A DNA stretch of 64,000 nt. Source: Eubacteriaceae bacterium ES3. GTDB lineage: Bacteria > Bacillota > Clostridia > Eubacteriales > Eubacteriaceae. The DNA is taken from positions 1,792,680-1,856,679 of the forward strand of contig CP130741.1 in assembly GCA_030586155.1 (NCBI GenBank). The letters run 5' to 3'. The notes under the pieces are model-generated. The model saw only the letters and a list, made by a program, of their open reading frames with translations. It was not told the DNA's origin and did not search any database. Made by a program: the position numbers and the translations under genes. The number at the start of each line of letters is the position of its first letter. Positions within the stretch are counted from its first letter, which is position 1. Below, piece by piece: positions 4,900 to 9,600 of this stretch.

Positions 4900-5841
4900 C
4901 TATTTAAAAAGCATTCCAATTTCGATTGGATTTCCTCTAAGAAAGTCCTTGACCGCCATCCTTTTTTTACCGGGGTATTGTATTTCTTTTATTCTAATCA
5001 AGCCGTTTCCAACAGCAACTGAAAGACCACTTTTAACATCAGCTTCAACAACATGTCCAGGTTGAATGCTAAGTTCCGTTTTCTCAAAGACCGGTAAAAA
5101 ACATTTAACTTTTTTATCCCCCAAATAAAAATAAGCTCCAGGATGGGGATCTAATCCGTTAATCAGCGAAACTAGCCTTTCCCCCGGCATGGTCCAATCT
5201 AAATGCCCCATTTCTTTATCTATTTTCTCTGCAAAGGTTGCCTCATTTTCATTTTGTTCCTTAGCGATTAACGTTTTATTGGCAATCTTCTCAAGATTCT
5301 CTGATAACAATCGAGCACCTGATTCAGCTAAAATTTTATGCAGCTCTCCAAAGGTTGTTTTTGCAGTTATCTCAGTTTCAGACTTAATATACATATTTCC
5401 GGTATCTAGACCTTTTGCCATTTGCATTATCGTAATGCCGGTTATATTATCACCGTTGATAATCGCTCTTTGAATTGGTGCAGCCCCTCTATATTTGGGC
5501 AATAATGATCCATGGATATTCAAAGCTCCATATAGAGGAATACTTAAAATTTCTTCCGGTAATTTTTGCCCATATGCTGCAACTACTAAAAAATCAGGTT
5601 TGGCATCCTTTATCATCTCAATGATATCAGGATTATTTATTTTCTCAGGTTGAAGTATTTTGAGTTCCTTTTCTATGGCCAACTTTTTAATAGGCAAAAA
5701 TTCAATTTTTTTGCCGCGGCGATTTGGTCGGTCCGGTTGGCAGAACACTGATAAAATAGTATGACCATCTTCAATCAGTTGTTCCAGGGCAGGAGCTCCA
5801 AAATCTGTAGTCCCCATAAAAATGATCTTAAATTTCTTCAT
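4900..5841 (-). CDS. fmt: Methionyl-tRNA formyltransferase
   Basis: Transfers a formyl group from 10-formyl-tetrahydrofolate to Met-tRNA(fMet) to start bacterial translation. The protein is 313 residues long, normal for the family. NIHGSLLPKYRGA (about 108-119) holds the catalytic asparagine and histidine and the SLLP motif. The catalytic aspartate is D146 in GLDTG. The C-terminal OB-like domain is present. The ATG at 5841 lies inside the end of def, overlapping by 14 bases. A TTG two codons upstream is possible, but neither has a strong ribosome site, which suggests coupling to def translation. The def-fmt pairing is near universal. Confidence 0.96.
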   Translation of the reverse strand: MKKFKIIFMGTTDFGAPALEQLIEDGHTILSVFCQPDRPNRRGKKIEFLPIKKLAIEKELKILQPEKINNPDIIEMIKDAKPDFLVVAAYGQKLPEEILSIPLYGALNIHGSLLPKYRGAAPIQRAIINGDNITGITIMQMAKGLDTGNMYIKSETEITAKTTFGELHKILAESGARLLSENLEKIANKTLIAKEQNENEATFAEKIDKEMGHLDWTMPGERLVSLINGLDPHPGAYFYLGDKKVKCFLPVFEKTELSIQPGHVVEADVKSGLSVAVGNGLIRIKEIQYPGKKRMAVKDFLRGNPIEIGMLFK

Positions 5842-6295
5842 CTTCAATCAATTCCGGTTCTTCAACTCGATCAATAAACAGTATACCATCCAAGTGATCC
5901 AATTCATGACATACTGCTCTCGCCAACAGGTCTTCTGCCTCCATTTCAAAGCGATTCCCTTCAATATCTGTTGCTTCCACAACCAGATGTTTAGGACGTT
6001 TAACGAGACCTGACTGTTCAGGCAAACTTAAACACGCTTCCTCGTCGATCTCTTCACCATCCTGTTCAATAATTTTGGGATTGATCAGGGTGACTGGACC
6101 ATCACCGACGTCTACAATTGCTATTCTTTTAAGTATTCCCACTTGAGGTGCAGCTAATCCAACGCCATCAGCCGCATTCATAGTCTCAATCATATCCTCA
6201 TTTAATTCTCGGACTCGATCTGTAATCTCTTCAATAACTCTCGATTTTTTTCGCAGGATCGGATCATCATCAATTCTTATTTGTCTAATAGCCAT
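5828..6295 (-). CDS. def: Peptide deformylase
   Basis: Removes the N-formyl group from new proteins; metal-dependent, cytoplasmic, ribosome-associated. All three motifs are present: GVGLAAPQVG at 44-53, the metal cysteine C88 in EEACLSLP (commonly EGCLS; the glycine is alanine here), and HELDH at 130-134. The 155 residues are typical. It has the strong context priA-def-fmt. The tail ends in the acidic run EEPELIEDEEI. Confidence 0.96.
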   Translation of the reverse strand: MAIRQIRIDDDPILRKKSRVIEEITDRVRELNEDMIETMNAADGVGLAAPQVGILKRIAIVDVGDGPVTLINPKIIEQDGEEIDEEACLSLPEQSGLVKRPKHLVVEATDIEGNRFEMEAEDLLARAVCHELDHLDGILFIDRVEEPELIEDEEI

Positions 6296-6306: not shown

Positions 6307-8652
6307 TTAATTTTTTATTTGTAATGAAATTTTTGATTTAAGGGTATCCAAGCCTTTTCTTTCAATTATCTCATGATATATATTCTGAAAATCCTGAATA
6401 TTAATTATTTTTACCATAATTTGTTCTTCGAAGCGCTCATTTGAATTATATTCTAAAGTTGCTGGTTTATATATTGAGTAATTCTCGACACTCTTCTGTT
6501 CAAGGCCTTCTTTTAAAATAAAATACAAACGCAAGGCATCATTTTTTGCTATTTCCTGATTACCATGACTAATTCTTAATATTGCCAGATTATAAAAAGG
6601 CGGGAACTTCATGGTCTTTCTAAATTCCAACTCACCTTGATAGAATGTTCTATAATTATCTTCAACGATCGACATAATTAAGTCATTTTGAGAATCATTC
6701 GTTTGAATAAAACCTAAACTATCAAAATTTAAAGCTTTTTTAAAAAAACGTGAATAAACCTGATACGTCCCCTCTGCAGCATCATATGAACCTAAATTTA
6801 AGTCCCGATCAATTAAAAAACAGACAGCTAAACCCACATTTGTAAAATTAAAATGCTTATTAAGTATCTGAGTGCCAATCAGTAAATCGATCTCATGATT
6901 TTTGATTAAGTCATTAACTTTTTCAATATCCTTAAAAGTCATTCCACCTTGAACTGCAAGAATTTTCAGCTTAGGATATCTTTTAACCAGATAGTCTTTT
7001 AGCTTTTCAAGGCCTATCCCTAAATGTCTAAGTTCATTATTGCCACAATATCTGCATTGATTTAGCGTCTTCTCCTGGTATCCGCAATATTGACATTCCA
7101 ATACTGAATTACCTTCATTGTATGTTAATGCCACCTTACAATTAGGGCATTTCTGTATTTGACCGCATTTCCTGCAAAGCACAGCTTTTGAATATCCAGT
7201 TCTATTAGCAAGGATCACCGTTAGTTTTTTATCGCTAAAATTCCGCAGTATTTCCGAGTTTAATTCTCTCCCGATAGGTGTTAGATTACCGTCTTTTAGC
7301 TCATTTTGCATATCAATGATTTTTATTATCCTGCTATTGGCACCTTTATCAATTTCAAAGTAGCCAATCTTTTTCTGTAAGATGTGGTAATATGTATTTA
7401 TACTGGGAATTTCATCCAGGAATAGATACTGGCATTTATGTAGAAGGGCATATTTTTTAACTAAGACTGGTAAATGGAATTTAGGAGATCCCATTGAATA
7501 ATATAATGGGTCACTTTCGTTATCAACTATTATCAGACCCAAATGCTGAAAAGGTAAAAACAAAGCCCCCTGCACGCCAATTATCAGTCTGATTTCACCG
7601 CTTTTAACACCCTGCCAGAACTTTCGTTGTTCTTTAACTGTAAGTCTATGATTGTATAAGCCAACCAGTTCACCAAAATATTTATAAAACAATTCAAATT
7701 TATGAAATGTTAAGTTTATCTCTGGCATAAGAAAAACAACTGTCTGATTTAGCCTAAGCTTTTCTTCAATGATTTTAAACAAAATTCGATACTTTGATGC
7801 AGAGTCACTGCCTTTAAAGAAACTGCCATCACTATCCAATTCTCTATACTTGTGATAAATCTCTTTTTCATTTTCACTTAAAAAAACACTCTGAATTGTT
7901 AAAGCATTATTTCTGACTTTTGATAATTTATATTCCTGATCTGATAATTCTCTCACAAGTCCTTTCCTAATCAGACCGCTCAGACTTGTCCGATAGTTTG
8001 GAATCAATTGCTTTAATTCAGAATCAGTTAGAGGTTTATAATTAAGTAGTTTTAAGATGGCTTCTTGATTTTTTCCCGCCTTAAAATTTTCATCAGCTCT
8101 TACTAGTGTATAATGTTTTTCTTCAACTACCGGTGACACAGAGAAAACATCTTTTCGGCTGATGAAGCGTTTTTCTATCATTTTTTTAAGAACTTCCCGG
8201 TCTTCCTTTTTTATATTTCTTTCAGGTACTTCCTTCGAATGATTCTTAAAATACTTATCTAAAAATTTTAATTCCGGATATTCAAATTGCACTTCAGAGA
8301 AATTGAGTCTAATATATGCCTCTTTTTTAACCCTTACTGGTGAAATAAAATAAGATAGGTTATCATAAAACAATGAACAATAATAAAATTTCATCCACAG
8401 ACAGAGTTCAATCTGCGCCTGGTTTAACACAGGTTCACGATCGAGAACCATCAATAAAGATTTCACAGCATATGATAATTTATCGATCTCCACCAGCCTC
8501 GTCACAAAGCCTTCGAGCTCACGATTTCCTCTTCCAAATGGGACTAAAACACGCATCCCAGCCTCAACCTTCTGGTCTATAGCAGGTTTATAAAAAAAGG
8601 GTTGGTCGATGCTTTTATTGTTCTGTTTTAAATAAACTTCTACAACTTTCAA
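6307..8652 (-). CDS. priA: PriA-like primosomal protein N' with degenerate helicase motifs
   Basis: PriA is the 3'-5' helicase that restarts stalled replication forks. The protein has 781 residues, and its N-terminal DNA-binding domain starts MKVVEVYLKQ as usual. All eight zinc cysteines are kept (C493, C496, C502, C505, C520, C523, C533, C536). The ATPase motifs are not: Walker A is GSDSASKY at 281-288 instead of GVTGSGKT; the DEEH box is DNES at 377-380; GSATPS is replaced by FLDEIPS near 411; KGxDF reads KHFNF near 599; and the QVAGRAGR arginine motif is YSRFFKKA at 633-640. The frame is intact, so this looks like a maintained, ATPase-dead structural PriA. The start codon is TTG with GAAGG upstream. 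Position between rpoZ and def supports orthology to PriA rather than a stray paralogue. Confidence 0.9.
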   Translation of the reverse strand: MKVVEVYLKQNNKSIDQPFFYKPAIDQKVEAGMRVLVPFGRGNRELEGFVTRLVEIDKLSYAVKSLLMVLDREPVLNQAQIELCLWMKFYYCSLFYDNLSYFISPVRVKKEAYIRLNFSEVQFEYPELKFLDKYFKNHSKEVPERNIKKEDREVLKKMIEKRFISRKDVFSVSPVVEEKHYTLVRADENFKAGKNQEAILKLLNYKPLTDSELKQLIPNYRTSLSGLIRKGLVRELSDQEYKLSKVRNNALTIQSVFLSENEKEIYHKYRELDSDGSFFKGSDSASKYRILFKIIEEKLRLNQTVVFLMPEINLTFHKFELFYKYFGELVGLYNHRLTVKEQRKFWQGVKSGEIRLIIGVQGALFLPFQHLGLIIVDNESDPLYYSMGSPKFHLPVLVKKYALLHKCQYLFLDEIPSINTYYHILQKKIGYFEIDKGANSRIIKIIDMQNELKDGNLTPIGRELNSEILRNFSDKKLTVILANRTGYSKAVLCRKCGQIQKCPNCKVALTYNEGNSVLECQYCGYQEKTLNQCRYCGNNELRHLGIGLEKLKDYLVKRYPKLKILAVQGGMTFKDIEKVNDLIKNHEIDLLIGTQILNKHFNFTNVGLAVCFLIDRDLNLGSYDAAEGTYQVYSRFFKKALNFDSLGFIQTNDSQNDLIMSIVEDNYRTFYQGELEFRKTMKFPPFYNLAILRISHGNQEIAKNDALRLYFILKEGLEQKSVENYSIYKPATLEYNSNERFEEQIMVKIINIQDFQNIYHEIIERKGLDTLKSKISLQIKN

Positions 8653-8928: not shown

Positions 8929-9600
8929 TTATCTCCCCAATATTTCTTCAATTCTATTTTTTAAACGTTCAGTTCTACATTTTTCAGCAGTAATAACTGA
9001 CTGTACCTTATTTGCTGCAACATCTAAATCATCATTAATAACAATATAACTGTAATCATCGGCATTTTTAATTTCTTCACTCGCACAACTTAAGCGCATT
9101 TCCATCTGTTCTTTACTTTCGGTTCCTCGCTCCTCAATTCGCCGCTTCAGTTCCTTCATTGACGGCGGTACAATGAAAATATAAATGCCCTCTTTATATC
9201 CAGTTCTGACTTTAGCCGCACCCTGAATGTCTATTTCCAGTATTACATCATACCCTGAATCCAGAAGATTTTCAACATAATCTTTTGGTGTACCATAATA
9301 GTTTTCATAAACTGAAGCGTATTCCAGATATTGTCCCTTTTCGATTCTATCCTCAAACTCCTGTTTTGAAATATAAAAGTAGTCTTTACCAGGTATTTCT
9401 CCATTACGCGGTTGTCGAGTTGTTTCCGAAACTGATAAGCGAAGATCCGGATTGTTTCTGCAAATAATTTTGCACACACTACCTTTACCTGCACAGGAAG
9501 GCCCTGAAATAACGATTAAAATCCCCTTCTCCCTTTGAAAAAAGGGCTCCTTCATTTCTTCTTCATTTAATTCTGGGGGACTGATAGGACAAGTATTCAT
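8929..9600 (-). CDS. gmk: Guanylate kinase
   Basis: Phosphorylates GMP to GDP with ATP. The P-loop is GPSCAGKGS at 33-41, with a cysteine where most guanylate kinases have glycine. The GMP-binding region SETTRQPRNGEIPGKDYFY follows. At 223 residues it is about 18 longer than usual because of a charged N-terminal extension before the first strand (EKGILIVISG). GAGGTG lies nine bases before the ATG, so the extension appears to be translated. It ends one base before the rpoZ start, so the two are tightly coupled. Confidence 0.95.
   Translation of the reverse strand: MNTCPISPPELNEEEMKEPFFQREKGILIVISGPSCAGKGSVCKIICRNNPDLRLSVSETTRQPRNGEIPGKDYFYISKQEFEDRIEKGQYLEYASVYENYYGTPKDYVENLLDSGYDVILEIDIQGAAKVRTGYKEGIYIFIVPPSMKELKRRIEERGTESKEQMEMRLSCASEEIKNADDYSYIVINDDLDVAANKVQSVITAEKCRTERLKNRIEEILGR

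Follow-up and report, generated by a model that had tools for sequence, protein, structure and literature searches.

Can a PriA protein do without its motor when it is the only PriA that a genome encodes? The question is raised by a gene of Eubacteriaceae bacterium ES3 that lies in the window, by which is meant the whole stretch of 64,000 nucleotides that was analysed. The gene is an open frame with a TTG start, and GAAGG lies eight bases 5' of that start. Together with its neighbours it is arranged as follows.

4900 to 5847, minus strand: fmt, methionyl-tRNA formyltransferase, downstream neighbour of priA (PF00551, 141.1 bits; PF02911, 81.5 bits)
5828 to 6295, minus strand: def, peptide deformylase, downstream neighbour of priA (PF01327, 164 bits)
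6307 to 8652, minus strand: priA, encoding a PriA without ATPase motifs (a pseudohelicase) of 781 amino acids
8676 to 8951, minus strand: rpoZ-like gene (RNA polymerase omega), upstream neighbour of priA (PF01192, 56.6 bits)
8929 to 9600, minus strand: gmk, guanylate kinase, upstream neighbour of priA (PF00625, 160.1 bits)

Is the product still a PriA? Full-length similarity places it there: the TIGR00595 priA model matches the protein at 315.8 bits, above its cut-off of 230.35. The longer PRK05580 models match below their own cut-offs, the best of them, NF004066 (PRK05580.1-3), reaching 401.6 bits against a cut-off of 813. By sequence, the solved relatives of the protein are PriA chains only, five of them full-length with E values of 1e-52 to 4e-50. 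An AlphaFold2 model built from 17 sequences has a mean pLDDT of 81 and a pTM of 0.79, and its nine best matches in the PDB are all PriA; 6dcr chain A matches with TM scores of 0.83 (target length) and 0.69 (query length). The protein is thus predicted to keep the PriA fold.

The motor is another matter. When the window PriA is aligned with E. coli PriA and with relatives from the same order, the positions of the helicase motifs read as follows.

7789 to 7812, minus strand: Walker A position, residues 281-288, GSDSASKY (GVTGSGKT in active relatives)
7510 to 7524, minus strand: motif II position, residues 377-381, DNESD (DEEHD/E in active relatives)
7402 to 7419, minus strand: motif III position, residues 412-417, LDEIPS (GSATPS in active relatives)
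6844 to 6876, minus strand: motif V position, residues 593-603, GTQILNKHFNF (KGxDF has become KHFNF)
6727 to 6750, minus strand: motif VI (arginine motif) position, residues 635-642, RFFKKALN (QVAGRAGR in active relatives)

The preliminary description had reported that Walker A, the DEEH box, the GSATPS-like motif, KGxDF and the arginine motif are all replaced within a frame that is open over 781 codons, and the alignment bears this out at 6307-8652 on the minus strand. The Walker A lysine survives by position, with the glycine before it and the threonine after it gone. Sequence hallmarks of a functional superfamily 2 helicase are gone: Walker A is missing, and the protein reads DNES in place of the DExH box, DEI in place of the SAT of motif III, and RFFKKALN in place of the arginine motif. 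What is still present is motif Ia (MPEINLT), the GTQ of motif V, and the first aspartate of motif II. Motif II can be called the least eroded of the motifs, since this aspartate is kept and DDEHD is still read there in 15 of the 19 genomes of the genus. The idea that an intact Walker A might lie elsewhere in the protein can be set aside, because the pattern GxxxxGK[TS] is absent anywhere in the window PriA; it is likewise absent in all 40 proteins of the family. The priA genes of the window species and of a second genome, G012 (loci L001 and L005), form a deep branch in Acetobacterium, being 52% identical to each other and 38-41% identical to the rest, and it is in these two that motif II is most eroded within the genus.

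Outside the motor, three elements can be recognised.

8353 to 8622, minus strand: 3' DNA-binding domain, retained, residues 11-100 (PF17764, PriA_3primeBD, 63.7 bits, E 1.4e-17, above cut-off)
7045 to 7176, minus strand: cysteine-rich zinc region, residues 493-536 (PF18319, Zn_ribbon_PriA, 34.2 bits, above cut-off)
6598 to 6621, minus strand: C-terminal R...PP element, residues 678-685

All eight zinc cysteines are in place (C493, C496, C502, C505, C520, C523, C533, and C536), as they are in 40 of 40 family members. R678, P684, and P685 are kept in all 40 and also in the 23 active PriA proteins of the order. Two C-terminal profiles fall short of their cut-offs, Helicase_C of Pfam at 22.9 bits (cut-off 23.5) and PriA_C (PF18074) at 21.7 bits (cut-off 26.9, E 0.00038); the C-terminal domain is therefore best described as retained but diverged. 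Thus, the earlier statement that the zinc cysteines, the N-terminal DNA-binding domain, and the C-terminal region are all retained stands for the first two and needs this qualification for the third.

How far does the loss extend? PriA is present in all 19 genomes of the genus, and Walker A is found in none of the 17 in which the P-loop can be read. The same holds for the family, where PriA occurs in each of 40 genomes from nine genera and an intact P-loop in none of 38 readable ones. The order's four other families yield 23 PriA proteins, every one with an intact P-loop; these come from 27 genomes, four of which (G047, G053, G054, and G062) have no PriA-scale match and are left out of the 23. 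Best scores against TIGR00595 run from 115 to 398 bits in the family and from 514 to 682 bits in the 23 PriA proteins of the other families. The named members of the clade are Acetobacterium fimetarium, A. paludosum, A. wieringae, A. dehalogenans, A. tundrae, A. bakii, and an A. woodii MAG, and further ones include Eubacterium callanderi and Pseudoramibacter porci; because of these named relatives the family is identified as Eubacteriaceae. Among the full-length named proteins, 16 of 16 lack Walker A and 16 of 16 have the eight cysteines, although most of the 17 named loci lie on contigs equal in length to contigs of the 40 family genomes and so add names and not independent counts. The motor loss is not a quirk of the strain and is common to the whole family. 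The loss itself was correctly recognised in the preliminary description, which looked at the level of Acetobacterium; that scope is too narrow, and the event is older.

The family alignment also bears on whether the ATP site may have kept a use. The protein might still bind nucleotide without hydrolysing it, or use another site, with ATP remaining a regulator. The P-loop lysine position (K287) carries lysine in 19 and arginine in 11 of 38 proteins, that is, a basic residue in 30 of 38 (contig ends truncate the two proteins from G008 and G009, and gaps reduce the number to 35 at some columns); the aspartate of motif II is found in 31 of 40 and the proline of motif Ia in 39 of 40. However, none of the 38 retains the P-loop glycine before this lysine or the threonine that follows, and none of 22 retains Arg587 of motif VI. 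Aspartate, asparagine, and glutamate are common in the P-loop, and at position 413 in motif III an acidic residue is fixed, every one of the 40 family members having Asp or Glu there and all 23 active PriA proteins of the order Ser or Thr. Retained nucleotide binding is on this evidence unlikely, and the letters at these positions suggest that the window PriA has most likely lost ATP binding.

Are there motor-less PriA proteins elsewhere in the phylum? A sample of 393 genomes of the class includes 12 of Eubacteriaceae, all of which score in the motor-less range. Twenty-four of the 393 were refetched: 18 have an intact P-loop, four lack a PriA match at the threshold, one (G075) is cut at the P-loop, and one (G396) is masked. 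Thus, 18 of the 20 low scorers outside the family that have PriA carry an intact P-loop, and the other two are unreadable. A sample of 398 genomes of the phylum gives ten motor-less PriA proteins in five families. Nine of them lie outside Eubacteriaceae, in four families designated f140 (four), f177 (three), f182 (one), and f212 (one); all nine have lost Walker A and motif VI, and all nine have the eight zinc cysteines. Here 16 of the 398 were refetched, of which nine are motor-less, four are intact, and three (G492, G604, and G768, each in two pieces) are unread at the P-loop; three further two-piece genomes (G666, G779, and G791) were left out of the refetch. The other high scorers were counted as intact by score, and the 20 of them that were fetched as tree rows are all intact. 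With ten cases in 398 genomes (16 refetched, the others assessed by score), the earlier statement that PriA in Firmicutes does not normally lack its motor is upheld. At the thresholds used, PriA matches are absent from G125, G348, G388, and G412 in the class survey and from G631 in the phylum survey; the estimated completeness of G125 is 100%.

Have these losses a common origin? A tree was built from 61 PriA proteins with the motif columns left out. Eubacteriaceae form one branch (100/100) inside the branch of their order (100/100), and the branch leading to them is long, at 0.73 changes per column. The f140 proteins also form one branch (100/100), beside an intact relative (100/98), and a third genus of f140 (G657) has intact motifs. 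Four changes of state are needed on this tree, and the strongly supported branches force three; f177 and f182 are joined at 94/93 and may represent one loss. The exact count of losses is unsure, given divergent rows, many of them with uneven letter composition, and an f212 protein whose place on a long branch is unsure. The tree gives the number of changes and not their direction, which is taken to be loss because intact motifs are by far the more frequent state and the E. coli outgroup has them. Forcing Eubacteriaceae and f140, a pair picked after the tree was seen, into one clade makes the tree 118 log units worse (AU p = 2.9e-5), and a single ancestral loss common to the two is rejected on this test. 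At least one other lineage of Bacillota, f140, has lost the motor independently. A comparison of 37 active and 24 motor-less proteins gives twenty positions kept in nearly all of them, eight of which belong to the zinc cysteines and three to the C-terminal arginine and proline pair.

Could a second PriA supply the missing activity? The window genome is a single contig of 3,392,449 bases (3.39 Mb), rated 100% complete, and a search of all of it finds no second PriA, which rejects a motif-complete copy elsewhere in the genome. There are only three weak matches: two are frames of 1164 and 700 amino acids with intact Walker A motifs of their own, which by size and motifs look like Mfd and RecG, and the third stands at E 0.09. 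Across the 40 family genomes, the matches listed include no second one on the scale of PriA; the next matches reach at most 57 bits, where Mfd and RecG lie, in a listing that ends at an E value of about 1e-12. Outside the window, the same genome has 13 IstB matches, among which are six near-identical ones of IS21 type (five of them equal in score) and a second type with three equal-scoring copies.

The likely partners of PriA are in place. The window genome encodes a DnaD-domain protein, followed directly by an AAA+ loader of DnaC/DnaI type with the P-loop GPPGIGKT. All three family genomes read at this locus show DnaD with an adjoining loader, the other two being a further member of the genus and a member of Eubacterium genus g3. 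A DnaD domain was found in 10 of the 10 family genomes searched for it, which represent all nine genera. The search also took in ten genomes from outside the family: the three of f177 with motor-less PriA (G626, G738, and G778) have no PF07261 DnaD match, and the other seven differ from them in this.

Recruitment of PriA to a different job, for example in transcription or as a sensor, would take the protein out of replication restart altogether. Conserved residues specific to the clade and the long branch that leads to it are what such a change might leave behind. Nevertheless, this seems very improbable: the zinc cysteines and the C-terminal R and PP make up 11 of the 20 positions kept across active and motor-less PriA, the searches found no second PriA that could take over restart, and DnaD and the loader are retained.

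Is the family gene under selection? By the Nei-Gojobori method, dN/dS lies at 0.097-0.177 in 13 family pairs from five genera; two of these pairs have dS above 1, and not all of the pairs are independent. Among active PriA, the four pairs whose dS could be measured give 0.056-0.110. Saturation removed from the count a single family pair out of 14 (the window species with G012, its nearest) and four of eight active pairs. For the second helicase lobe (HD2), 12 of the 13 family pairs have a dN lower than that of the whole gene; for the first (HD1), dN is at or below that value in eight and above it in five. Constraint appears to be partly relaxed, somewhat so in the first lobe, since dN/dS in the family somewhat exceeds that of active pairs and HD1 exceeds the whole gene in those five.

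Where constraint persists can be read from columns that are invariant or nearly so in the 23 active PriA proteins of the order, scored cell by cell in the family. The cells kept number 35 of 257 in the P-loop, 66 of 120 in motif II, 8 of 120 in motif III, 36 of 118 in motif V, and 11 of 170 in motif VI; for the zinc cysteines they number 320 of 320. At the other such columns 2179 of 3840 cells (57%) are kept, so that the family PriA has diverged overall and not at the motor alone. The replacements are themselves conserved: the serine of motif III has become Asp or Glu throughout the family, the residue at Ec562 is likewise Asp or Glu in all 40, and a Phe-Phe pair occupies Ec581-582 (36 of 40 and 37 of 40). 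The columns that we take to form the SSB-tail pocket of PriA are variable among active PriA proteins of the order too, and are uninformative.

Family priA is clearly under purifying selection. Neutral decay, by which priA would have become dispensable in the lineage and be drifting towards a pseudogene, could explain the lost motor motifs, a PriA more divergent than in sister families, and the somewhat raised dN/dS, but it is barely credible when dN/dS stays at 0.10-0.18, the zinc cysteines and the replacement residues are conserved, and an internal stop in the PriA match occurs in 0 of 40 family genomes (G008 and G009 being cut by contig ends); a pseudogene in drift is rejected on dN/dS. The suggestion of the preliminary description that the gene is selected for a structural role gains support from dN/dS, from the zinc cysteines and the conserved replacements, from the lack of a second PriA in the genome search, and from the DnaD and loader genes.

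What would such a protein do? Very probably, PriA in this family is an ATPase-dead protein that has lost its helicase and is kept by selection as a scaffold for replication restart, that is, as a platform for loading the replicative helicase. Its functions in fork recognition and loading are inferred from the retained domains. On this scheme PriA would still recognise abandoned forks and D-loops, with the single-stranded DNA of the lagging strand held by its zinc domain, HD2, and C-terminal domain. It would then recruit DnaD, followed by the loader with the replicative helicase, and ATP would be spent by these last two and not by PriA. A fork with a double-stranded lagging arm would need prior opening by a different helicase or prior resection.

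A further and tentative proposal is that motor loss is a recurrent endpoint in Bacillota, reached with the same zinc and C-terminal core kept, and that in Eubacteriaceae the dead ATP site may have been rebuilt as a conserved charged interface that locks the lobes in a loading-competent state without ATP. The candidate residues, read from conserved letters, are the Asp or Glu at motif III and at Ec562 and the Lys or Arg around motif VI; in the window PriA, Asp413, Asp617, Lys287, and Arg635/Lys639 might bridge the lobes at the former ATP site. If this were true, a fixed geometry rather than the stroke of a motor would be the essential act of PriA.

PriA pseudohelicases are known as a kind. The PriA of Deinococcus radiodurans, which like the window PriA is without usable helicase motifs, is described as having no measurable ATPase and negligible unwinding while binding forks, single-stranded DNA, and DnaB (PMC4504706). 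Its fork binding is tight, at 108.5 nM (PMC4504706). In the window genome, the only PriA found has likewise lost its helicase motifs, as would be expected of a pseudohelicase of this type. There are differences: according to that account, Deinococcus-Thermus PriA proteins match motifs I and II poorly and have Arg for Lys in GKT, whereas the window PriA has replacements at each of motifs I, II, III, V, and VI; D. radiodurans belongs to another phylum and is described as lacking clear priB and dnaT genes (PMC4504706), whereas the window genome has DnaD and a loader of DnaC/I type.

In E. coli, PriA binds each arm of the fork, and a pivoting of the zinc domain creates a pore around the single-stranded DNA of the lagging strand and exposes the site for PriB (PMC10175261). 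In the same source, ATPase-dead PriA is used for DnaB loading in vitro, and the ATPase is said to be unnecessary for PriA-PriB restart in vivo (PMC10175261). Laboratory-made Lys230 mutants remove the motor and keep primosome assembly (PMC10175261, PMC4504706). These are single engineered changes, whereas Eubacteriaceae show a natural loss of five motifs throughout a family.

The motor-less proteins of f140, f177, f182, and f212 resemble that of the window in the loss of Walker A and motif VI and in their zinc cysteines, but motif IV is intact in all nine and the Asp or Glu of Eubacteriaceae at motif III is found in none. Actinobacterial PriA proteins are also known to lack helicase motifs. The window protein does not belong to the PRK14873 group, which we take to be that of actinobacterial PriA: its models score 26.8-99.3 bits, far below the 401.6 bits of PRK05580.1-3. 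Actinobacterial PriA is described as smaller and very divergent (PMC1193525), and in divergence the window PriA is like it. As far as the open-licence full-text literature shows, motor-less PriA in Eubacteriaceae and its recurrence are unreported.

Why most bacteria keep the PriA helicase when E. coli restarts without it is described as an open question (PMC4504706). A family without the motor, together with at least one independent loss in the phylum, amounts to a natural experiment on PriA, one that separates residues for fork recognition and helicase loading, the 20 kept positions, from those needed for unwinding only. The acetogens Acetobacterium and Eubacterium are cultured, and since the family includes them a direct test is possible.

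The class survey also holds what could be called the mirror image of the window PriA. Locus L096 of genome G271 is a frame of 612 amino acids in which the PriA ATPase motifs are intact and the whole zinc region is absent with the reading frame preserved.
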